From assembly GCA_028293125.1 (NCBI GenBank), contig JAQGPJ010000105.1, positions 62,001 through 126,000 of the forward strand: a stretch of 64,000 bases of DNA. Reading direction: 5' to 3'. The position numbers and the translations under genes are program-made. Source of the DNA: Verrucomicrobiales bacterium (lineage in GTDB: Bacteria; Verrucomicrobiota; Verrucomicrobiia; Verrucomicrobiales; V1-33). The notes under the pieces were generated by a model, which made no database searches, was not told where the DNA came from, and was given only the letters and a program-made list of their open reading frames with translations. Positions 4,808-16,751 of the stretch are shown here, piece after piece; position 1 is the first letter of the stretch; the number at the start of each line of letters is the position of its first letter.

Positions 4808-5194
4808 GTGAATTCCTCTGCCCCCCCCTCTTCCCCGGCCAACTCTGTTCCCCCTGTCCTTGAAGTGCCGGACCTGCTCCGGCTGGCGGAAAATCCGGAT
4901 CGTCTGGCTTGGCAGCCTTTTCGTGAAGGCGTGGAAATCCACCGCCTTTACGGCGATGGGGTGACCGGCCCCTCCGCGGCCCTGCTGCGTTATGCCAAGG
5001 CGGGCCGCGTGCCCCGGCATTTTCATGAGGGCTACGAGCATATTCTCGTCCTCGCCGGCAGCCAGCGGGACGAGCACGGCCCACTGCCCCCCGGCACCCT
5101 GCGCATCCACCCGCCCGGCACCAGTCACGAGGTTTTCAGCGAGGCCGGCTGCCTGGTGCTGGCCATTTACGAAAAACCGGTGCATTTTGAGTGA
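4808..5194 (+). CDS. ChrR-like cupin-domain protein
   Basis: The 128-residue product is a single cupin with the metal-site motif RHFHEGYEHILVLAGSQRDE (two His and a Glu in the expected spacing) and a second half PGTLRIHPPGTSHEVFSEAG with another His. This is the pattern of ChrR-type cupins, small metal-binding barrels found alone or as anti-sigma partners. It starts at GTG 4808, 21 bases after the biuret-hydrolase-like gene, with no closer ATG, so it is almost certainly co-transcribed. In this context it may act on, or sense, the pathway intermediate, but no function can be read from sequence alone. Confidence 0.75.
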   Translation: MNSSAPPSSPANSVPPVLEVPDLLRLAENPDRLAWQPFREGVEIHRLYGDGVTGPSAALLRYAKAGRVPRHFHEGYEHILVLAGSQRDEHGPLPPGTLRIHPPGTSHEVFSEAGCLVLAIYEKPVHFE

Positions 5195-5263
5195 ATCTTA
5201 AGCTCGGTCACCGGTGCCGCTGAGGGCCTTGCAGCCGCGCTGCAGGCCGACTATATTCGAGCC

Positions 5264-5833
5264 ATGCTCACTATCCTTGAAGAACCGGGCCTGCTCACCA
5301 GCGCCGTGCCGGTGAGTGTGGTTTGCTATGAGAAAATGAGTGAACTGGGTTTGGTTGACGAGGGCACAGAACTCATCCGCGGGGTGATTTTTGAAAAAAT
5401 GAGTAAATCGCCGCTGCACTTTTTTATGGTCGATCTGATGGCCGAAATTCTCAGGCGCGGGTTGCCACCGGATCTGATGGTGCGTGTTGAATCCTCTTTG
5501 CGTCTGGCCGACTCCTGCCCGGAGCCTGATCTTTGTGTGGTGCCGGGACCGCGTGACCTTTATGCCATCCACCATCCACGGACGGCTTTGCTGGTGATTG
5601 AGGTGGCCATTTCCTCCGAAGCCCTGGACCGTGCAAAGGCTGCCATTTACGCCGAAGCCAAAGTCGGGGAATACTGGATTGTGATGCCTCAGCGCCGGGC
5701 GATTGAACGCTTCACGCATCCTCAGGATGGCGTTTACACCCGGCAGCACACCATCGAATCCAGTGAAGTGGCGATTTCCATGACCGTGCCCGGATTCAGT
5801 GTGACCTTGGACAGGCTGCTGCCGAAGCCCTGA
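5264..5833 (+). CDS. Uma2-family (DUF820) PD-(D/E)XK nuclease-fold protein
   Basis: The 189-residue protein has the Uma2 pattern: a start segment EKMSELGLVDEGTELIRGVI, then the core PEPDLCVVPG, the strand LLVIEVAISS and the helix KAAIYAEAKVGEYWIV. In this PD-(D/E)XK-fold family the Asp of PEPD, the Glu of VIEVA and the Lys of KAAIYA are the presumed metal and catalytic residues, all present. The family is abundant in cyanobacteria and in PVC bacteria, and the true role is unknown. The gene stands alone 69 bases after the cupin. Codon use seems a little less GC-biased than its neighbours, which fits a mobile accessory gene, but I did not quantify this. Confidence 0.85.
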   Translation: MLTILEEPGLLTSAVPVSVVCYEKMSELGLVDEGTELIRGVIFEKMSKSPLHFFMVDLMAEILRRGLPPDLMVRVESSLRLADSCPEPDLCVVPGPRDLYAIHHPRTALLVIEVAISSEALDRAKAAIYAEAKVGEYWIVMPQRRAIERFTHPQDGVYTRQHTIESSEVAISMTVPGFSVTLDRLLPKP

Positions 5834-5866
5834 AATTCCTCAAGCCGCATTCCTGCTGGCCGGCAG

Positions 5867-7144
5867 TCACCGGGCAATGATCCGCGCACCGCGCTTCCAG
5901 GTGAAATAGGAGTACACCCACTGGACAACCACGGCGATGCGGTTGCGGAAGCCCACCAGAAACAGCAGGTGGATAAACAGCCACATCAGCCAGGCCACCC
6001 ATCCGCGGAACTTCATGCCGAAGGCATCGGCCACGGCGCTGCTGCGGCCGATGGTGGCCATATTCCCCTTGTCCAGATAGCCAAAGGCTGCCCGCTGGTG
6101 GGCTCCATCGAACATCCGGCGGTGCCGCAGCTCAGCATCGATCACCTTGGCCACATGCCGGCCCATCTGCGTGGCCGCGGGCGCGACTCCCGGCACCCGG
6201 ACCTTGTTTTTATCCGTCAGGCTGACCAGATCACCGATAGCGAAAACCTCCGGATGCCCCGGCAGACTGCAGTCCGCCTCCACCTGAATACGCCCGCCGC
6301 GGTCCACCGGGACCCCCAGCGTTCCGGTGAGGGACTGCGCCTCCACCCCTGCGGCCCAGATAATGTTCTCCGCTCGGATCTCCTCACCGTCCAGCTGCAC
6401 CAGCGCGGGACCGATATCCTTCACCATGGTGCTCAGACGGACCTGCACGCCCATCTTCCTCAGACGCTCCGCCGCATAGGCGGAAAGGCTTTCCGGAAAG
6501 GTGGCCAGCAGCCGCGGTCCGGCCTCGATCAGAATCACCTTTGCCTGCTCCGGCCGGATACGGCGGAAATCCTCCGCCAGCACCTTGCCGGAAAGCTCCG
6601 CCAGCGCGCCCGCCATCTCCACCCCCGTCGGCCCCCCACCCACCACCACCATGGTCATCAGCCGCTTCCGCTCCCTGTCATCCGTGGAGATCTCCGCACG
6701 TTCAAAAGCCCGCAGCACCCGCGACCGGATCTGCGTGGCGTCCTCCAGACTTTTCAGGCCGGGCGCGTGCTCCTCCCATTCATGGTGGCCGAAATAACCG
6801 GTTTTGGCCCCCATGGCCAGCACCAGGTAATCATACTCCAGCACCTGCCCCCCCAGCGTCACCTTTTTGGCCGCGAGGTCGAAGGCATGGGCCTCCTCCA
6901 TCAGCACCGTGACATTCGGCTGATTGCGCACCAGGGAGCGGATCGGTTGAGCGATCTCCGGAGCGGAAAGCCCCGCCGTGGCCACCTGATACAGCAGCGG
7001 CTGAAAGAGGTGATGGTTCCGCCGGTCCACCAGAGTCACCGCAAACGACGGATCCCGCAGGTTACGTGCGCACTCCAAACCTCCAAATCCACCACCGATG
7101 ATCACCACTCTGACAGGCTGCCGGGCTTCTGATTCCTTTTTCAT
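5867..7144 (-). CDS. ndh: Type II NADH dehydrogenase (NDH-2), FAD-dependent
   Basis: The 425-residue product oxidises NADH and passes electrons to quinone at the inner face of the cytoplasmic membrane without pumping protons. It shows the FAD-binding motif VVIIGGGFGGLECARNL at residues ~13-29, the segment HHLFQPLLYQVATAGLSAPEIAQPIR typical of NDH-2, a second dinucleotide fold VVVGGGPTGVEMAGALAEL near residue 166, and the second FAD motif VFAIGDLVSL. The C-terminus carries a hydrophobic helix (AWLMWLFIHLLFLVGF), probably the membrane anchor. It is convergent with the Uma2 gene (34-base gap) and divergent from the transpeptidase gene. Confidence 0.9.
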   Translation of the reverse strand: MKKESEARQPVRVVIIGGGFGGLECARNLRDPSFAVTLVDRRNHHLFQPLLYQVATAGLSAPEIAQPIRSLVRNQPNVTVLMEEAHAFDLAAKKVTLGGQVLEYDYLVLAMGAKTGYFGHHEWEEHAPGLKSLEDATQIRSRVLRAFERAEISTDDRERKRLMTMVVVGGGPTGVEMAGALAELSGKVLAEDFRRIRPEQAKVILIEAGPRLLATFPESLSAYAAERLRKMGVQVRLSTMVKDIGPALVQLDGEEIRAENIIWAAGVEAQSLTGTLGVPVDRGGRIQVEADCSLPGHPEVFAIGDLVSLTDKNKVRVPGVAPAATQMGRHVAKVIDAELRHRRMFDGAHQRAAFGYLDKGNMATIGRSSAVADAFGMKFRGWVAWLMWLFIHLLFLVGFRNRIAVVVQWVYSYFTWKRGARIIAR

Positions 7145-7321
7145 GCACTGCTTTCCTAACCTTCACTGCCTCATCCCGCAAGCGTTCCTGGAGATGGAGC
7201 CTGAAATTGACTGAGTTGAACGGGGAACGGCCGCGGCCACCCGCCGGACCATGCCATCCGTGTGAAAAGCGCTCTCCGCAGGGGCAGGAAAAAGCGGTGG
7301 AGCGCGCTGCGGGGGTGTGAT

Positions 7322-7975
7322 ATGAAGGCGCGCATGAAATTTGCCCCCGCTCTCCCAAGGCTCCTCTGCGCGGCTCTGCTGACCGCCAGCGCTCTCGGTT
7401 TTTCCAGCTGCAGCACCATTCCTAAAATCACCCACGCCCGCAACAAGACCTCGGACACCTTTGATCCGCCCGCCCATCGCCCCAAAGATCCCAATGCCGT
7501 GGTGCTGAAGGTCTCCACCGGTGCCCAGCGCGTCTATGTGGTGGAGAACGGCCGGGTGCTGCTGGCCACTCCCTGCTCCGTGGGCACGGCCAAGGACCCC
7601 ACCCCGCGCGGCAATTTCCGCCTGACCTATAAAAACGCCACCCGCCGCCGTGCCAGCCAGCCGGATGCCGGCTATCCCATGCCCTACTGGATGGAGTGGA
7701 AACCGGCCTATGGAATGCACTGGGGCTTTGTGAAGCCCTATCCCTGCACCCACGGGTGCATCCGCCTGCCCATGAAGTCAGCCGCCAAGATTTTCGCCAT
7801 GACGAAGACGGGCACTCCCCTGCTGATCGCCACCTCCCACCCCGAGGACGCCACTGCGGGACGCAACCTTCCCGTGCTGGATGACGGCCCTCTGCCGAAC
7901 CCTCCCAAATCCTACCTGCTGAGCCCCCAGTTCTTTGCGGACGCCCAGTATAAAGGTAAAATGTTCGTGGATTGA
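7322..7975 (+). CDS. L,D-transpeptidase (YkuD domain) lipoprotein
   Basis: The 217-residue product begins MKARMKFAPALPRLLCAALL and ends its signal at GFSSC, a plausible lipobox with the Cys near residue 30. The YkuD domain follows: KVSTGAQRVYVVENGRVLL, PTPRGNFRLTYK, and the catalytic motif HWGFVKPYPCTHGCIRLP with the conserved His and nucleophile Cys. Such enzymes make 3-3 cross-links in peptidoglycan or attach proteins to it. I chose ATG 7322 because a GGGGGTG stretch lies just upstream and because it gives the signal peptide; an in-frame GTG 60 bases earlier adds only basic residues. Confidence 0.88.
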   Translation: MKARMKFAPALPRLLCAALLTASALGFSSCSTIPKITHARNKTSDTFDPPAHRPKDPNAVVLKVSTGAQRVYVVENGRVLLATPCSVGTAKDPTPRGNFRLTYKNATRRRASQPDAGYPMPYWMEWKPAYGMHWGFVKPYPCTHGCIRLPMKSAAKIFAMTKTGTPLLIATSHPEDATAGRNLPVLDDGPLPNPPKSYLLSPQFFADAQYKGKMFVD

Positions 7976-8191: not shown

Positions 8192-9436
8192 ATGTCCACT
8201 CCTCCCATTCCCGCCGCCAAGCCCCGCAAGGTGAATGTGCGCACTCCCGAAGTCATGGCCCGCGTGCAGGAGCAGGTGGAGACCCATTACCGCTCCACCA
8301 TCGTGGAGCGGGTGCGGCAGGCCGGCGGCGTCATCACGGTGGGCAACACCACCATTCGGCTGGCGCGGCAGTTCGGGTTCTGCTACGGCGTGGAGCGGGC
8401 CATTGATCTGGCCTATGCCGCCCGCAAGGTTTTTGGCGATCAGCGCCTGTTTCTGCTGGGGGAGATCATCCACAACCCGGAGGTCAACCGGCAACTCAGC
8501 GACATGAGCATTCTCATGCTGCACAACCCGCCGACGGAGCAGGAATTCGAGGATCTGCAGCCCGATGACATTGTCATCATCCCGGCCTTCGGTGCCACCA
8601 CCGCCATCATGCAGCGCATCAACGAGCGCGGCTGCCGCACGGTGGACACCACCTGCGGCGATGTTATGAGCGTCTGGCGGCGTGTGAGGGAATACGCCCG
8701 CCGGGGCCTGACCTCCATCATCCATGGCAAAGCCGCCCATGAGGAGACCCGCGCCACCGCCTCCCGCGCCCAGGGGGACGACGGCATGGGGAACTACCTT
8801 ATCATCCTGACTTTGTCCGATGCCGACGCCGTCTGTGAGTATATCCGTCACGGCGGGGAGAAGGAGGCGTTTCTGAAGCGTTTCAATGGAGCCTGGAGCC
8901 CCGGCTTTGACCCGGATGTGCATCTGCGGCGCATCGGCGTGGCCAATCAGACCACCATGTTGAAAAGCGAAACCGAAGAGCTCCAGAGCCGTCTGCGGCA
9001 AGCCATCACCGACCGCGACGGCACCGACCTGGCTCTGGAGAATTTCTCGGTCTTCGACACCATCTGCGGAGCCACCCAGGAGCGCCAGGACGCCCTCTAT
9101 GAAATGCTCAAGCAGCCCATGGATCTGCTGCTGGTCGTCGGCGGCTACAATTCCTCCAACACCACCCACCTGGTTGAGATTGCGCAGGAATACCTGCCCA
9201 CCTTTTTCATCAAGGACTCCAGCTGCCTGAAATCACTGGAGGAGATTGTTCACTTCGATCTCCACAGCCGACACGAGCAGAACACCGCAAACTATTCCAG
9301 CGTTCTGCTCGGCAGCGGTCCCGTGACCATCGGTATCACCGCCGGTGCCTCCTGCCCCAACAACCTGATCGAGGAGACCATCCTGCGCCTCTTCAGCCTC
9401 CGCGGCATTCCCGCGGAGCAGGTGCTGGCAGCCTGA
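8192..9436 (+). CDS. ispH: 4-hydroxy-3-methylbut-2-enyl diphosphate reductase, long form
   Basis: The 414-residue enzyme does the last step of the MEP isoprenoid pathway, making IPP and DMAPP with a [4Fe-4S] cluster. The three cluster cysteines are visible: Cys64 (FGFCYGVERAID), Cys155 (VDTTCGDVMSVW) and Cys292 (DTICGATQERQ). At about 414 residues it is the long cyanobacterial/plant-type form rather than the ~310-residue enterobacterial form, with an extra N-terminal segment and an insert after HGKAAHEET. The C-terminal SCPNNLIEETI is conserved. I start at ATG 8192; the frame extends upstream through the terminator, which cannot be coding. Convergent with the PBP2 gene. Confidence 0.92.
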   Translation: MSTPPIPAAKPRKVNVRTPEVMARVQEQVETHYRSTIVERVRQAGGVITVGNTTIRLARQFGFCYGVERAIDLAYAARKVFGDQRLFLLGEIIHNPEVNRQLSDMSILMLHNPPTEQEFEDLQPDDIVIIPAFGATTAIMQRINERGCRTVDTTCGDVMSVWRRVREYARRGLTSIIHGKAAHEETRATASRAQGDDGMGNYLIILTLSDADAVCEYIRHGGEKEAFLKRFNGAWSPGFDPDVHLRRIGVANQTTMLKSETEELQSRLRQAITDRDGTDLALENFSVFDTICGATQERQDALYEMLKQPMDLLLVVGGYNSSNTTHLVEIAQEYLPTFFIKDSSCLKSLEEIVHFDLHSRHEQNTANYSSVLLGSGPVTIGITAGASCPNNLIEETILRLFSLRGIPAEQVLAA

Positions 9437-9518
9437 CTGGACTGACCCGCCCGCCGAGCACCCCCGGTGGCATTTTCAGGCTTCAGGGATTGCCTGCCGG
9501 ACTGTTTTCAGGTTTCTC

Positions 9519-11837
9519 TCAGCGCCTGCGGAAGCGGTCAAAGAAACTGCGAAGACCGGTCCTTGCGCGGGGTGGCTCAGCCAACACCGGTGCCGGAGCC
9601 GCCACAGTCTCAGGGCGCGGGGCGGAGCTGGAGGGGCTTCTGCGTCTTTTAGTGGCGGCGAGGGGCTTGTCCCCATCATCATCGTTGGTCTCCTCCTCAT
9701 CGTTATCCCCTTTTCTGCTTTTGCCTTTGCCACCCTTCGCCTTTTCATCGGGCATTTCGTTGCCATCCTTCTTCAGCTTGTAGATTTTATTGAACACGTT
9801 GCCCACCAGAGGAGCCACGGTTTTGCCTCCGGAAACGGTTTCATCAATATTTCCCTCATAAATCGCGGCAAAGGCGTATTCGGGATTTTTGAAGGGAATG
9901 AACCCGGCAAACCAAGCCACATTCCGCTTCGGTTTTTCCTTCCACTCCCCAGTGCCGGTTTTGCCGGCAATGATCACATATTTGTTTTCAGCCTCCTTGC
10001 CAGTGCCGTCGCCGTCCTCCACCACTGCCCGCATACCCTTGCGCACAGCGTCCAGAGAATCCTTTTTAAAATTCAGCACGGTGCGGATGGTGGGGGGGAA
10101 GGACTGCACAATAGTTCCGTCCACATCCTGGATCTGACGGACCAGCCGGGGCCGGGGAATGGCGTCCCCGCGGGCTACACCGGCCATCATCTGGGCCACC
10201 TGCAGGGGGGTGGCCTCCACATCGCCCTGTCCGATGGACACATTGGCCAGCACCCCGCCCGCCATGCGGGTGCCGCGTTTCTTCTGATAATATTCCGGCG
10301 TGGGCATCCGGCCCGGCAACTCCATGGATGGCAGCGCGATTCCAGTCTTGTCGCCAAAGCCCAGCTTGATGCCCATGGCGGAGACATTGGCTCCGCCGGC
10401 CGCCATGGCGGCTTGGAAAAACCATGTATTGCAGGACCGCTTGATGGCCCGCACCACATTCATGTCGCCCTCACTGTTCTTGTTGTGGTTCCGCATCCAC
10501 ACATTGCTGAACATCATGCCGTTGGGGCAGCTGAAATAGGTGTCGTCCGTCACCTTTCCGGACTCCAAGGCCGCCAAAGCGGTGACGATTTTAAAGGTCG
10601 AGGCCGGTGGATACAGGCCCTGCATCGCGCGGGGCAGCAACGGCTTGTCAGGATCATTGAGCAGGGCCGCATGCCGCTCGTGGCTGATGCCGTAAACACG
10701 CTCGTTGGGGTCAAAGCCGGGGTTGGAGCAGATCGCGATCACATCGCCCGTGCGCACATCCAGAATCACAAAGGCCCCCCGCACTTTGTCAGCCTGCATC
10801 TCGCGCTCCACGATCCGCTGAAAGCGCAGGTCGAGGGAGGTGACCAGCGTGTTTCCCGCTTTAGGCCGCTCCACCCATTCCTCCGTGACTTTTTCCCCCT
10901 CGGCATTGAACAGCACACTGTAAAGTCCCGGCTTGCCCGTCAGCTGGGTATCGAACTGCTGCTCCAAACCGGACGCGCCGATGGTCGGAGTCCACAGGAG
11001 TTCATCGGAGGCCAGATCACCGGAAATCAGCTTCCCGTTTTTCTGCATGTAGCCCAAGGTGTGGGAGGCGGTGCTCCCCTCCGGATAGGCGCGGAGATAG
11101 AACGGCTGCAGCACCACGGTGGAGGGAAGGTGGGCCTTCAGTTTTTCCACCTGATCGTCCGGCACCAAGGTGTCGGAGAGCAGCGGCACCCAGCGGCGCT
11201 TGCGGTAATGCTCCAGAATCTTGTCATCCGGTATTGTCCAGCCGCCCGGCAGGGTGCGTTTCACCCAGTCCACCCCATACCGCGCCCGGGTCAGCACCGA
11301 GGAATCCGGCAGCTTGTCCACCATGGGAAGCTGCACTCCCAAGTAGTACCCCAGACGGTTCTGCGCCAGCGGCTCGCCACGGCGGTCCACGATCTGTCCG
11401 CGGGGGCCCGGCACCCGCCGGGTGAGCGGGCGGGCGGAGGTGTCCGTGTTCAGCGTGATGGCCATCTTTGGCTTCTCCTCTTTTTTGGAGGGGGCGGGAT
11501 CCTGCACCGGACCGCCAGGTTTGGCTGGCTTCACATTGATGGGCGGAGCATCGTCACGGGACACCGCCGGCACGTCGATGGGTTCGTCGTCATCCTTGTC
11601 CTGCTTCTTTGCGGAGTTCACTGCCGGTGCCGGAGCCCCGTTTTCATCCTCAGGCACGATCACTGCTTTTGGCGGGGCGTCATCCGGGAATACGGGATCA
11701 TCCTCCACGGGTTCCGCTTTGGGGACAGCCGGCTCCGGAACCCGCTCCACGTGGGACGGTTCCGCATAAGGCTGCGCCTGGACCGGCATCGGAACCAGAG
11801 CAGTCCCCAGAAGGGTGATGAGGAGAATCCGGCGCAT
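9519..11837 (-). CDS. mrdA: Penicillin-binding protein 2 (peptidoglycan transpeptidase)
   Basis: The 772-residue class B PBP forms peptide cross-links for side-wall growth. The transpeptidase motifs are present: Ser413-Thr-Phe-Lys416 (PPASTFKIVTAL), Ser468-Cys-Asn (RSCNTWF) and KTGT at 626-629. The dimerisation domain starts near residue 145 (GPRGQIVDRRGEPLAQN). Unusual features are a signal-peptide-like start (MRRILLITLLGTALVPMPVQAQ) in place of a plain membrane anchor, then a ~100-residue acidic/Pro-rich linker, and a ~90-residue charged tail ending in FFDRFRRR. It is the last gene of a leftward group with coaD (60-base gap) and the pseudokinase gene. Confidence 0.9.
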   Translation of the reverse strand: MRRILLITLLGTALVPMPVQAQPYAEPSHVERVPEPAVPKAEPVEDDPVFPDDAPPKAVIVPEDENGAPAPAVNSAKKQDKDDDEPIDVPAVSRDDAPPINVKPAKPGGPVQDPAPSKKEEKPKMAITLNTDTSARPLTRRVPGPRGQIVDRRGEPLAQNRLGYYLGVQLPMVDKLPDSSVLTRARYGVDWVKRTLPGGWTIPDDKILEHYRKRRWVPLLSDTLVPDDQVEKLKAHLPSTVVLQPFYLRAYPEGSTASHTLGYMQKNGKLISGDLASDELLWTPTIGASGLEQQFDTQLTGKPGLYSVLFNAEGEKVTEEWVERPKAGNTLVTSLDLRFQRIVEREMQADKVRGAFVILDVRTGDVIAICSNPGFDPNERVYGISHERHAALLNDPDKPLLPRAMQGLYPPASTFKIVTALAALESGKVTDDTYFSCPNGMMFSNVWMRNHNKNSEGDMNVVRAIKRSCNTWFFQAAMAAGGANVSAMGIKLGFGDKTGIALPSMELPGRMPTPEYYQKKRGTRMAGGVLANVSIGQGDVEATPLQVAQMMAGVARGDAIPRPRLVRQIQDVDGTIVQSFPPTIRTVLNFKKDSLDAVRKGMRAVVEDGDGTGKEAENKYVIIAGKTGTGEWKEKPKRNVAWFAGFIPFKNPEYAFAAIYEGNIDETVSGGKTVAPLVGNVFNKIYKLKKDGNEMPDEKAKGGKGKSRKGDNDEEETNDDDGDKPLAATKRRRSPSSSAPRPETVAAPAPVLAEPPRARTGLRSFFDRFRRR

Positions 11838-11897: not shown

Positions 11898-12386
11898 TCA
11901 GGACTCGCGCAGTCCCAGCGCCTCCCGCAGCGCCGCCTCCACGGGCGGGGGCACGAACCGGCCGAAGCCGCCACCGAGCCGGGCGACCTCCTTGATGATC
12001 CGGGAGCTGAGGTAGGTGTACTCCTCCCGCGCCGCCAGAAAGACTGTCTCCATATGCCCGTCCAACGTGCGGTTCATGAGTGCCATCTGGAATTCATACT
12101 CAAAATCCGTCACCGCCCGCAGCCCCCTCACAATTGCCGCCGCCCCCTGCGCCCGGGCAAAATCCACCAGCAGCCCTTGGAAAGTCGTCACCTCCACCCC
12201 CGGCAGATCCGCCAGACTCTCCTGGATCAGCCGCACCCGCTTTTCCGTGCTGAAAAGAGGGCTTTTTTCACTGTTGGCCGCCACCGCGATCACCAGCCGG
12301 TCAAACAGCAGCGCGGCGCGCCGGATCACATCCACGTGGCCATTGGTGACGGGGTCAAAGCTGCCGGGATAGATGGCGGTTCTCAT
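11898..12386 (-). CDS. coaD: Phosphopantetheine adenylyltransferase
   Basis: The 162-residue protein catalyses the fourth step of coenzyme A synthesis, joining ATP to 4'-phosphopantetheine. The family markers are the N-terminal AIYPGSFDPVTNGHVDVIRR with the nucleotide-binding TNGH, AAIVRGLRAVTDFEYEFQMA, and YLSSRIIKEVARLGG. Length is normal for the bacterial enzyme. It lies between the pseudokinase gene upstream (70 bases) and the PBP2 gene downstream on the same strand, likely as one transcript. Confidence 0.95.
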   Translation of the reverse strand: MRTAIYPGSFDPVTNGHVDVIRRAALLFDRLVIAVAANSEKSPLFSTEKRVRLIQESLADLPGVEVTTFQGLLVDFARAQGAAAIVRGLRAVTDFEYEFQMALMNRTLDGHMETVFLAAREEYTYLSSRIIKEVARLGGGFGRFVPPPVEAALREALGLRES

Positions 12387-12456
12387 AAGATGGGGTTGGT
12401 TTTGTGAAAAATCAGCCGGCGACAGCCGGTCTGCACAGCCAGGCGGCCGGATGACA

Positions 12457-15279
12457 TCAGCCTCCGGCTTGGAGTTTTTTCAAACGGTCCTGCGCCGCGG
12501 CGGTCATCTGTTTGGCCGTCTGATCCCCCGCGTCCAGCCCGCGCAGAGCTTCCAGCACGCTGGTGAAGCTGGCGGCGGCCTCCGTCAGGTTGCCGGCTTT
12601 TTCCTGGGCGCCTCCGATCACCGCCCATGCGCGCGCGGTCAATTTCCGGCATTCGTTGCGCTGGGTCTCCGGCAGCGCGGCACCGCCATTGAGGCGGCTG
12701 GCGATGGTCACGCCTTCCTGCAGCGAGGTCAGGGCGGCGGACAGGCCTCCTGAAGCGGCCTCCAGCTCCCCGTTCAGCACCAGGACAGACGCCAGGCGCA
12801 GCTGCAGGGTGGAGTCTTTGGAATTGGCCTCCTGCAGCCGGCGGAGAATCGCCAGCGCGCCCTTGCCGTAATCCAAGGCCCGCCCGGCCCCCTCCGGAGT
12901 GGAGTCCGCCGTGTGGACCAGCTGGGCCACCTCCGTGTAGGCGCGGGCCAACTGCAGGCTGCTGGTGGCGTCGGAGGGGACGTCGGTGGTCATTTCCGAC
13001 AGCAGGCGCACCGCCTGCTGGAAGGTGTGGATGGCATCCTTCGGCGCGCCGGCCACTGACAGCGTCTGGCCCAAACTGAGCAGCGTCTCGGTCAGCCGCG
13101 TGCGGCAGGGCATGGATTTCGGATGCCGGCTGTCGTAGGCCAACAGCAGCTGCAGCGCCTGGGTGCGCCGCTCCACCGCCTGCGCAAAGCTGCTTCGGGA
13201 CTCTGCAATCTCCGCCAGTCCGTTCAGGGCATCGGCCAGGGTGAAGGTGTCCTCGGGCTGAAAATCCGCCCCCTCCGGTTTTGGCAGCAGACCGGTCACG
13301 CGGCCCAGCGCGGCGGCGGCATCATCCGGCAGATGGAGTCCCAGCATCACCCGGCCCTCCAGGAGGGAATGCCGGGCGAAATCCCTCGCGGCATCGTGGC
13401 GGTCCGGGTGCGCGGCCACCCAGGGGCTGAACGATTCCGAAGCCTGCAGCAGCAGCGGCACCGCCTCCGCGGTTTTCCCCTCCTCCTGCAGCAGGGAGGC
13501 CCGCCGGGCCAGCATCCGTGCCTTCAGCAGCCTCCGCTGGTCCTCCTGCGCCGCATCCGCCGGCGGGAGGGTATCCAGATCCCGTGACAACCGCTCCAGC
13601 AGTGGCAGGGCGTTTTCTGATTTTCCAACAGCGGAATAAAGGGCTGCCAGCTGCCACCGCGCCTCCAGACTGGAGGCCGCCAGCGCCGGGACCTCATCGC
13701 AGGCCGCCAGCGCCTCCCTCAGCTGCTCCGCCACCGGCAGGGCCGCCGCCTGCCAGACGGCGCGTTCCGCCGGCTCCGCAGGGGCGGATGCCAGCATTTT
13801 GCCCACGGTCACCGCCGACCGGTCACGGAGAGCGGCCATCTCCCCGCTCCGCTGTTCCTCCACCTGTTTTTTATAAGCGTCCGCCTGGGCCTCCGAGGCC
13901 GCTGCCCGATGCTCCGCATCCCGTGCCGCCATGCCGGCCCTGTTCAGCTCCACCCGGCTGCGGTCGCCCGCCGTTTTCTGGGAAAAAACGTAGACAGCCA
14001 CCCCCACCAGAATCACCACCGCCGCCATCTCCATATTCCAGCCTTTCGGAGCCGAAGGGGCTTTGTTGGCCCCGGATTCCTGACCGGGTCCGGTGGCTCC
14101 GGCTTTCGGAGCAGCCGGCCCGGAAACGGCTGGAGCAGCCTCGTGGGCCATGGTCGGGGAGGCAGGCAGGAAAGCCGGATTCGGGGGTTTGATGGGCTCC
14201 GCCAGTGGCTCGGCAAAGACAGGGGCGAAAGGAGGAAAGCGCGTGAGGGCCGCCGATGAGGCTGCCGGCGTTGCATTCCTTAAAACTGCCGGGTTTTCCC
14301 ATGGCCGCACTTCGGCTTTTGGCTCCGCAGGTCTTTCCGGCCGCTCCATCCCTCCGGCGTGCTCCCTGTCCGGTTCCCCTCCGACCGGCACCGCCGTTCC
14401 CAGCGCGGCGCGAAGCGGCGGGCATTTTCTCAGAGCCAGCGCCACTTCCATCATCGACTCAGGACGTTTGTCCGAATCGGTTTCCAGACACCGCATCACC
14501 ATCGCCCGGCACGGTTTTTCCCATTCATGCAGGCTGCGCGTCCGCCAGTGGGGAGCGGGCTCTCGGGCCAGCCACTCCGCAAACGCCGGAGGGTCGATGC
14601 TCAGTCCCTCCCCACGTGATGCCAGCACAGTTTCAAAAACCTGCGTCGCGCGCGGCCAGTCACCGGTCAGCAGACGCCACGCCAGGACTCCAAAGGCATA
14701 CACATCCCAGCCCTCCGCGCGGCCATCCCGCAGCACCCGGCCGGGATCCCGCCAGCGTTCCGGCGGCATGCAGGGCGCCTGATCGTGCAGCCGCTCCATG
14801 CTTCCGTCCCCCAGCCACGCCTGTCCGGCATCCGCCAGCACCACGCGGGGAAGCTCCTGCCCGGCGCTGACCACAAACACATTTCCACCGGTCACCCCCG
14901 CGTGCACGATTCCGTGTCCGTGCATCCATGCCAGGGTGTCCGACAGTTGCCGCAGCAACCCCCACGCCTCCTCCTCCGTCACCTGACCGGAAAGTTCATC
15001 GAAAGTCATCGCATTCTCCGGCAGCAGCGCGGTTCCCACATATGGACAGTCGTTATCCAGATCAAAGGCATGCACCTTCAGCAGCCCCGGATGCTCCGGC
15101 AGCGCCCGCAGCTTCTCCAGCACCGATCCCAAATAGGGCCAGTGCAGAGCACCCTCCTCCAGCACCTTCACCGCAAAGGGGTAATGACCCTGCCAACGCG
15201 CACGGTAAACGGTCCCGAACGCTCCCCGCCCGATACGGGAATCCAGCGTATAACCGGGCGGATTCGGATGAGGCATCAT
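12457..15279 (-). CDS. Membrane pseudokinase (Ser/Thr-kinase fold without catalytic Asp) with repeat domain
   Basis: The 940-residue product starts with a protein-kinase fold: Gly-rich loop GRGAFGTVYRARW (17-29) and the ATP-site Lys38 (PFAVKVLEE). The catalytic loop, normally HRDxKxxN, reads HAGVTGGN (126-133), so the proton-acceptor Asp is Gly128 and the loop Lys is Thr130. The DFG motif is DAG (150-152). After a Pro/Ala-rich linker a membrane helix lies at ~417-434, then ~500 residues of Ala/Leu-rich helices resembling TPR units (EARWQLAALYSAVGKSENAL). The helix would place these repeats outside the cytoplasm. I start at the double ATG 15279/15276 because the kinase core follows at once; a GTG at 15357 is open but has no family character. 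Likely a signalling scaffold rather than an active kinase. Confidence 0.85.
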   Translation of the reverse strand: MMPHPNPPGYTLDSRIGRGAFGTVYRARWQGHYPFAVKVLEEGALHWPYLGSVLEKLRALPEHPGLLKVHAFDLDNDCPYVGTALLPENAMTFDELSGQVTEEEAWGLLRQLSDTLAWMHGHGIVHAGVTGGNVFVVSAGQELPRVVLADAGQAWLGDGSMERLHDQAPCMPPERWRDPGRVLRDGRAEGWDVYAFGVLAWRLLTGDWPRATQVFETVLASRGEGLSIDPPAFAEWLAREPAPHWRTRSLHEWEKPCRAMVMRCLETDSDKRPESMMEVALALRKCPPLRAALGTAVPVGGEPDREHAGGMERPERPAEPKAEVRPWENPAVLRNATPAASSAALTRFPPFAPVFAEPLAEPIKPPNPAFLPASPTMAHEAAPAVSGPAAPKAGATGPGQESGANKAPSAPKGWNMEMAAVVILVGVAVYVFSQKTAGDRSRVELNRAGMAARDAEHRAAASEAQADAYKKQVEEQRSGEMAALRDRSAVTVGKMLASAPAEPAERAVWQAAALPVAEQLREALAACDEVPALAASSLEARWQLAALYSAVGKSENALPLLERLSRDLDTLPPADAAQEDQRRLLKARMLARRASLLQEEGKTAEAVPLLLQASESFSPWVAAHPDRHDAARDFARHSLLEGRVMLGLHLPDDAAAALGRVTGLLPKPEGADFQPEDTFTLADALNGLAEIAESRSSFAQAVERRTQALQLLLAYDSRHPKSMPCRTRLTETLLSLGQTLSVAGAPKDAIHTFQQAVRLLSEMTTDVPSDATSSLQLARAYTEVAQLVHTADSTPEGAGRALDYGKGALAILRRLQEANSKDSTLQLRLASVLVLNGELEAASGGLSAALTSLQEGVTIASRLNGGAALPETQRNECRKLTARAWAVIGGAQEKAGNLTEAAASFTSVLEALRGLDAGDQTAKQMTAAAQDRLKKLQAGG

Positions 15280-15418: not shown

Positions 15419-16498
15419 GTGCCCGCTGCTCCCCGCTCCGCCACCGCCACCCGGCAGAAAACCGCCGCCGCCGAACCACGCGGCGCCTCCGGCCCGTCCA
15501 CCGCCGCCACTCCTCCGCCCCGCAAGGGTGGCCGCCCCTCCAAAAAATCCATCCACCCGGATACCGGGGACTCCCCCGCCCCCGAAAAACCGGCGGTGGA
15601 AAGCCTGCCCACGCCGGAAGAAACCGCCTTTCTCCAGTTTCTGGATGTCGAGCGCAACTCTTCTCCTCTGACATTGGTCAATTACAGCCATGCCCTGAGC
15701 GGATTCCGCACCGGCCACCCCGGCTTCACCTCGTGGGCGGAGGCCACAGCGGACGATTTCCGGGGCTGGCTTTTCATCATGATGAAGCGGGGGCTGAACC
15801 ATGCCACCATCCGGCTGCACTTCGCCGCCCTGCGCAGTTTTTACAAATTCCTCGTCCACCGCGATGGCTTGGCCGCCAGTCCGCTTCAGGATGTGCAGCT
15901 GCCCAAAGCCCGCCGCCCGCTGCCCATCGTGCTCACCACCGCGCAGGCCGAGGAACTGGTCACCCTGCCGCTCACGCTGCCCCCCGAAGGCCCGCAGCGC
16001 TCCGCTCCTTGGGCGGGGGAGCGGGATGCCGCCATCCTTGAACTTTTTTACAGCACCGGCCTGCGGCTGCACGAGCTGGTGCAGCTGGATGTGGAGCATA
16101 TCGACGTGCTCAATGAAACCCTTCGCGTCACCGGCAAGGGCCGCAAGGACCGCGTGTGCCCTGTGGGCGGCCCCGCTCTGCGGGCCATTCAGCGCTACCG
16201 CCATGTGGCTAAAGTGGACAGCGGCCCCCTGTTTCTCAGCAAGCTCCGCCGCCGCATCACGGACCGGGCCGTCAACGACTTGCTGAAAAAATACCTCCGG
16301 CGTTCCTCCATCCCCCTGCGGATCAGCCCCCACAAGCTCCGCCACAGCTTCGCCACCCACCTGCTCAACAACGGAGCCGACCTCCGCAGCGTCCAGGAAC
16401 TGCTGGGGCACGCCCACTTGTCCACCACCCAGATCTACACCCATGTCTCCACCACCCGGATGAAGCAGGTGTATGACACCTCGCATCCCCGTGCCTGA
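15419..16498 (+). CDS. Tyrosine recombinase, XerC/XerD type
   Basis: The 359-residue integrase has a core-binding SAM-like domain (~65-165) and a catalytic domain with all residues: Arg216 (STGLRLHEL), Lys240 (TGKGRKDR), His305 and Arg308 (PHKLRHSFATH), His331 (LLGHAHLS) and Tyr340 (QIYTHVS). Xer enzymes resolve chromosome dimers at dif. An N-terminal extension of ~65 residues rich in Ala, Pro and Lys is extra to the E. coli proteins. It starts at GTG 15419; no better start is nearer. No att or dif site or phage genes are visible beside it, so it looks like the housekeeping enzyme. Gene order (IF-1-like gene 28 bases downstream) suggests co-transcription. Confidence 0.88.
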   Translation: MPAAPRSATATRQKTAAAEPRGASGPSTAATPPPRKGGRPSKKSIHPDTGDSPAPEKPAVESLPTPEETAFLQFLDVERNSSPLTLVNYSHALSGFRTGHPGFTSWAEATADDFRGWLFIMMKRGLNHATIRLHFAALRSFYKFLVHRDGLAASPLQDVQLPKARRPLPIVLTTAQAEELVTLPLTLPPEGPQRSAPWAGERDAAILELFYSTGLRLHELVQLDVEHIDVLNETLRVTGKGRKDRVCPVGGPALRAIQRYRHVAKVDSGPLFLSKLRRRITDRAVNDLLKKYLRRSSIPLRISPHKLRHSFATHLLNNGADLRSVQELLGHAHLSTTQIYTHVSTTRMKQVYDTSHPRA

Positions 16499-16526
16499 AC
16501 TCTCCCCTTCCCTCCTTCCCCTCCTG

Positions 16527-16751
16527 ATGCCCGCCCCGAATCCCATTTACGCCATCGGCACCATCCTTGAGTGCACCGGTCCCCGCGTTTACCGCACCGC
16601 GCTGCCCAACGGCAAGGAGATCCTTGCCCACGTCCCCTTCAAACTGGTGACCGGTCTCGGCCTTCTCGCTCCCCGGACCAAAGTGAAACTGGAGCTGACC
16701 GCCTACGATTTCTCCACCGGCAGGATAGCGGGCAAGGCGGAGGAGTCCTGA
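16527..16751 (+). CDS. IF-1-like small S1/OB-fold protein
   Basis: The 74-residue product reads IYAIGTILECTGPRVYRTAL, then NGKEILAHVPFKL, and ends with KVKLELTAYDFSTGRIAGKAEES. This matches translation initiation factor IF-1 in order and spacing: the 'G-x-hydrophobic' strand, NGxExLAHxxxK, and the closing VxxExxxYDxxxGRI. It lacks the standard IF-1 start (MAKEDxIEVEGxV) and the basic C-terminus, so it is probably a divergent paralogue rather than the main infA. It starts at ATG 16527, 28 bases after the recombinase stop; a short in-frame extension upstream overlaps that gene. Whether it binds the ribosome A site cannot be told from sequence. Confidence 0.7.
   Translation: MPAPNPIYAIGTILECTGPRVYRTALPNGKEILAHVPFKLVTGLGLLAPRTKVKLELTAYDFSTGRIAGKAEES

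Follow-up and report, generated by a model that had tools for sequence, protein, structure and literature searches.

What role is left to a bacterial kinase fold once the aspartate of its catalytic loop is gone, and is a gene of this kind a damaged copy or a conserved part of the cell? The question is raised by a gene in the window, by which we mean the whole stretch of 64,000 nucleotides analyzed from a Verrucomicrobiales genome. An earlier note on this DNA had described the product as a kinase fold lacking the catalytic Asp, tied by a membrane helix to an outer repeat domain, and had suggested a possible link to cell-wall growth through its neighbors.

Domain organization and membrane topology

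The gene (12457–15279, (−) strand) is a genuine open reading frame. It encodes 940 aa from an ATG, arranged as a kinase fold, a proline-rich linker, a membrane helix, and a TPR domain; the Pfam scan of this protein matched no domain beyond kinase and TPR. The kinase fold (residues 10–274; 14458–15252, (−)) matches the Pfam Pkinase model PF00069 with E = 7.4e-14 (52.2 bits against a cut-off of 31.7), as do all 36 members of an order-wide set of relatives, and a family profile (A2) aligns it to kinases of solved structure, EGFR and B-Raf among them. Its single-sequence structural model was poor (pLDDT 38).

The C-terminal 501 residues (440–940; 12460–13962, (−)), predicted to be extracytoplasmic, form an all-helical domain in a single-sequence model of mean pLDDT 73. 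Several Pfam TPR models match over residues 488–910, with TPR_12 and TPR_7 above cut-off, and the best structure matches of the model (Foldseek and VIA, Z up to 18) are TPR superhelices, namely LGN, kinesin light chain (KLC), sNASP, and a consensus TPR. Pfam, the structure matches, and the model all place this part among the TPR families, whose repeats form a superhelix. The model also matches BtubC of Prosthecobacter vanneervenii, a TPR protein that resembles kinesin light chain (Z 17.9, rmsd 4.9 over 216 residues, 12% identity), a match that may mean nothing because TPR folds match one another widely. The type VII secretion protein EssB did not turn up when the TPR model was compared with known structures, an absence that counts neither for nor against a relationship.

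Between the two domains, a hydropathy peak marks a membrane helix at about residues 415–434 (13978–14037, (−)). A single hydrophobic helix following the kinase domain and linker is present in all 12 orthologues from the same taxonomic family and in every order-level member inspected. The flank charges of the 940-aa protein are themselves ambiguous as to topology. Across the protein family, the flank on the kinase side is the more positive one in 31 of 36 members (three opposite, two ties), which favors a kinase fold predicted inside and TPR repeats predicted outside, an argument made by the family and not by the 940-aa protein alone. The three-part architecture given in the earlier note is thus borne out by the Pfam matches and the one helix, with the outer placement a prediction. 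The same note had compared the layout to that of PASTA kinases without catalysis. PASTA kinases such as PknB and PrkC do share a kinase inside, one membrane helix, and repeats outside, but the 940-aa protein differs in having neither PASTA repeats nor a catalytic Asp, and the likeness stops at layout: the outer domain matches TPR models and structures, and the score against NF033483 is 24 bits for a cut-off of 450. Models for MADS6 and PASTA kinases match through the kinase fold only and far under cut-off.

Active-site residues and comparison with known pseudokinases

The catalytic loop had been read as HAGVTGGN instead of HRDxKxxN, and it is: in residues 126–133 (14881–14904, (−)), Gly128 stands in place of the HRD Asp and Thr130 in place of the loop Lys. 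Also as claimed, the glycine loop (GRGAFG) and the ATP-site Lys (β3 Lys38, in AVK) remain, together with Glu55 (presumably the helix-C Glu), a PPE at residues 172–174, and the motif DVYAFG. The DFG position, which the note had counted as a further pseudokinase sign, does read DAG (residues 150–152; 14824–14832, (−)). This does not amount to a catalytic defect, because the metal-binding Asp150 is kept and the Phe alone has changed, and another kinase of the same genome (L076) carries a canonical HRD together with DAG.

The missing Asp is not peculiar to this gene. It is absent from every sequence of a first alignment of orthologues from the genus and the other genera of the taxonomic family. 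A larger set comprises 63 relatives, almost all from the same order, chosen for having a residue other than Asp at the HRD position; the claim of Asp loss was tested on the Asp-bearing kinases in the same alignment, which are either members of an HCD-type sister clade (seven) or canonical kinases outside the family (two). The replacing residue varies among the 63 (Asn in 43, Gly in 15, Ser in 2, Ala in 2, Gln in 1). The HAG loop, whose conservation the note had proposed to check, is constant in its His126 (63/63) and in its lack of Asp. Other residues are nearly invariant: the catalytic-loop Asn133 and the DFG Asp (62/63 each) and the glycine-loop residues G17 (59/63), G19 (60/63), and G22 (63/63). 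Lys38 is kept in 54 and is Arg in the other nine. The presumed helix-C Glu is found in only 16, including the 940-aa protein, and is kept within the source genome's own taxonomic family. The loop Lys is Lys in 41 and Ser, Thr, Arg, Asn, or His in the rest. No acid replaces the HRD Asp in the catalytic loop of any of the 63, and beyond the kinase set we noticed, in the family alignment, no acidic or nucleophilic residue that is both invariant and specific to the family.

By the sequence definition of a pseudokinase (loss of the β3 Lys, the HRD Asp, or the DFG Asp, applied without activity data), all 63 qualify through the HRD Asp, and the pseudokinase reading is supported. The loss is far beyond chance, since the Asp is absent from 63 of 63 relatives and kept in all 22 of the other kinase-like proteins of the source genome. 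Judged from sequence, the catalytic base is lost and the residues that would hold nucleotide and metal are retained. The kinase domain is also under purifying selection, with dN/dS of 0.05–0.15 in close pairs; in one genus, the linker gives 0.35–0.40 and the TPR part 0.13–0.15. Some of the dS values exceed 1 and are rough for that reason. Since a functionless domain would not be so constrained, these values point to a functional kinase domain.

On its motifs, human HER3 (ERBB3) is the closest described active site. HER3 has Asn for the HRD Asp, lacks the helix-C Glu, and keeps the Lys, Asn, and DFG Asp; it binds ATP with a Kd of about 1 μM and one Mg, activates its partners allosterically, and retains weak autophosphorylation (PMC4718504). 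The likeness to the bacterial proteins extends to a single-pass membrane protein with a cytoplasmic kinase fold, to the conserved β3 Lys, loop Asn, and DFG Asp, to the Asn that replaces the HRD Asp in 43 of the 63 members, and to the helix-C Glu that is missing from most members outside the source genome's taxonomic family. On the other hand, HER3 has an EGF-receptor ectodomain where the bacterial family has a TPR domain, and the 940-aa protein has Gly rather than Asn and keeps its Glu. By analogy, and from the conserved binding residues, family members would be HER3-like binders of ATP and Mg, and the nucleotide-binding head proposed in the earlier note is plausible, as Lys, Asn, and the DFG Asp are conserved. 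An absent Asp is no proof of full inactivity, because HER3 still weakly autophosphorylates.

Bacterial pseudokinases described so far look different. A 2025 review lists seven families: in ActPs1-3 and GLW each of the three motifs has diverged, in DYD and DLHK those for ATP and metal have, and CP1, which is cytosolic and occurs with COG3899, is mixed (PMC12599244). The review mentions neither TPR nor Verrucomicrobia, and none of its seven families matches the present layout. The 940-aa protein falls outside CP1, which has no transmembrane region and a linked COG3899 domain, in having a membrane helix and a TPR tail, and outside DYD, defined by β3 Lys to Arg and absence of the helix-C Glu, in keeping Lys38 and Glu55 (Arg occurs in nine of the 63 relatives). 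EssB/YukC of Firmicutes type VII secretion resembles it as a cytoplasmic pseudokinase with one membrane helix, an extracytoplasmic domain, and a scaffold role, which for the 940-aa protein is a proposed one. In EssB, however, degradation affects the three motifs and the glycine loop alike (PMC12599244), whereas the glycine loop, Lys, and DFG Asp are intact here; the degraded glycine loop and shortened activation loop that mark EssB/YukC do not describe a protein that keeps its glycine loop. MviN/ActPs3 of Actinobacteria is likewise a membrane-linked bacterial pseudokinase, and MviN is tied to peptidoglycan synthesis, but its architecture is unlike kinase-membrane-TPR; none of the three motifs is left in ActPs3, and MviN fails to bind ATP (PMC12599244). 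A literature search for Verrucomicrobial or TPR pseudokinases found no published description, and a 42-family atlas of bacterial Ser/Thr kinases may hold the clade under another name.

Distribution and origin of the family

Each of the other four genomes of the genus has an orthologue, as does every further genus of the taxonomic family. Within the order, a profile built from the 12 family-level orthologues (A1) has matches at E < 1e-30 in 208 of the 289 genomes, spread over 43 of the 50 genera, counts that include an active sister family described below. The matches are mostly single open frames of about 850–930 codons, and there is about one family copy per genome across the order. When a profile of 36 order-wide pseudokinases (A3) was run against a sample of 384 genomes of the class, 38 matches fell within the order and three outside it; these three are an Asp-less protein from f36 (HGAV), a canonical HRD kinase, and a match to the TPR part only. 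In a sample of the phylum, 16 of the 19 genomes with matches belong to the order. Profile searches found the family absent from every listed genome of one genus with genomes of 2–3.5 Mb (g5 of taxonomic family f2), and a related-locus search of genome contigs returned only a distant canonical kinase. Nearly the whole order has the family, and it is scarcely found elsewhere.

How the base was lost can be read from a kinase-domain tree of 81 rows, made by a quick method. All 46 Asp-less proteins in the tree lie on one side of a single branch (SH-aLRT 98), which requires one change of state. Their neighbors are seven kinases with HCD..KPSN and DFGQ. These are themselves kinase-membrane-TPR proteins, mostly 700–800 aa long, and they are homologous to the pseudokinases over 705 columns that include the membrane helix and the TPR part (hhalign E 1.1e-93). 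In the alignment of this sister (A4), full-length homology, domain order, and the DFGQ motif are shared; the difference is that the sister keeps the catalytic Asp and Lys. It is present in 44 genomes of taxonomic family f3 and one of f2, and a profile search found it absent from the source genome and its taxonomic family. The simplest history would start from a catalytically active TPR receptor-like kinase that lost its base near the root of the order.

The seven sister loci (L133, L136, L137, L138, L144, L146, and L150) occur one per genome. In some f3 genomes (L132, L134, and L135) the pseudokinase family is represented by two or three divergent proteins, and in L132 two of them are encoded side by side (5084–7786 and 8350–10947). 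Outside the order and within the same class, L151 (849–3857, (+)) encodes a 1003-aa Asp-less kinase (HGAVKPTN) that was perhaps transferred. L152 (618–3569, (−)) matches the family profile over 7–772, yet it is a canonical HRD kinase; full-length profile matches outside the order therefore need a motif check.

Proposed function, alternatives, and gene neighborhood

We consider it probable, at roughly 0.6, that the protein is a nucleotide-binding, non-phosphorylating transmembrane switch or scaffold, a reading in which ATP binding, inactivity, a periplasmic ligand, and a kinase partner are all inferred. In the sequence comparisons, the kinase domain of this predicted single-pass inner-membrane pseudokinase lost its base once, in the ancestor of the order-wide family, and has since stayed under purifying selection. 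Its cytoplasmic head would bind ATP and Mg and phosphorylate no substrate, while the outer TPR superhelix would bind a periplasmic protein, either a ligand or a partner. The head's shape or dimer state may depend jointly on this outer binding and on the nucleotide state inside, and the head would then recruit or allosterically regulate a partner, most simply one among the many active Ser/Thr kinases of the cell, with eukaryotic parallels in HER3 and STRAD. Family members are probably switches or scaffolds rather than enzymes.

Among other explanations, a decaying gene, an assembly error, or a local mutation has a negligible chance, and so falls the refutation envisaged in the earlier note, orthologues with an intact HRD: the orthologues have open frames in nearly all genomes, share the loss in 63 of 63 cases, and are under purifying selection. 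By these comparisons the gene belongs to a conserved order-wide membrane pseudokinase family and is not damaged. That the protein is instead a weakly active or unconventional kinase, capable of slow or self phosphotransfer without the usual base as in HER3 or by irregular means as in CASK (PMC4718504), is unlikely. The conserved Lys, Asn, and DFG Asp are what residual transfer would need; yet Asp has given way to Gly, Asn, Ser, Ala, or Gln with no substitute acid in the loop, and the loop Lys is itself variable. A lost base with a kept nucleotide site is also the pattern of kinase folds that do other chemistry with ATP, AMPylation in SelO or glutamylation in SidJ for example (PMC12599244). We regard such a chemistry as very unlikely here, as the family has no conserved loop acid, unlike the SelO loop Hgvmntdn (PMC12599244), and no invariant acidic or nucleophilic residue of its own was noticed beyond the kinase set.

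A further alternative, which we judge quite unlikely, comes from the gene neighborhood: the protein could be a cell-wall scaffold, comparable to MviN, that makes PBP2 and peptidoglycan synthesis respond to the state of CoA or ATP. The earlier note had placed the gene in one leftward group with coaD (11898–12386, (−)) and PBP2 (mrdA-like; 9519–11837, (−)). Within the genus this holds, with coaD following at short gaps in five of five members and PBP2 following coaD in four, which are all those whose contigs reach that far. Beyond it, the pseudokinase family is order-wide, yet neither gene adjoins it in the other genera of the taxonomic family that were checked or at 40 loci sampled in the order's remaining families. 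Support for the cell-wall reading is therefore confined to a single genus, and the proposed tie to PBP2 finds none elsewhere. The 70-base gap before coaD also holds a terminator-like GC hairpin with a T run (12413–12429, (−); a consensus match only), so that co-transcription of the pseudokinase with coaD is unsure; inspection by eye suggests a similar structure in a second member of the genus (G001).

The preferred reading, a non-phosphorylating switch or scaffold, can be extended to the whole family, although here we are more tentative, at a little under even odds: these would be order-defining, ATP-binding transmembrane pseudokinases that arose when an active TPR receptor-like kinase lost, a single time, its catalytic base and nothing more, and that became a near-universal non-catalytic signaling hub in the order. 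They would be a bacterial counterpart of HER3 whose active sister some genomes still have. In contrast to the seven reviewed families, with motifs diverged as described above (PMC12599244), the base is lost everywhere and once, the nucleotide site is retained, and a full-length active sister exists, which makes the role of a non-phosphorylating bacterial kinase fold directly testable. The family is also a simple marker of one order.

Outside the genus, recurring neighbors are few, chiefly DUF1501/DUF1553-like genes in f2 (names assigned by reading the sequences) and a recombinase in a second genus of the source genome's taxonomic family. The latter, a Xer-type tyrosine recombinase (15419–16498, (+)), lies divergently beside the pseudokinase in genera g1 and g4 and is thus a more widely kept neighbor than coaD or PBP2. 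Right after it, 16473–16751 (+) encodes a 92-aa IF-1-like protein, perhaps an IF-1 paralogue (33 bits against an NCBIfam cut-off of 61). The PBP2 of the window scores 432 bits against the mrdA model, slightly under the cut-off of 455. Its N-terminal stretch is long, acidic, and rich in proline, and a charged C-terminal tail extends past the transpeptidase domain.
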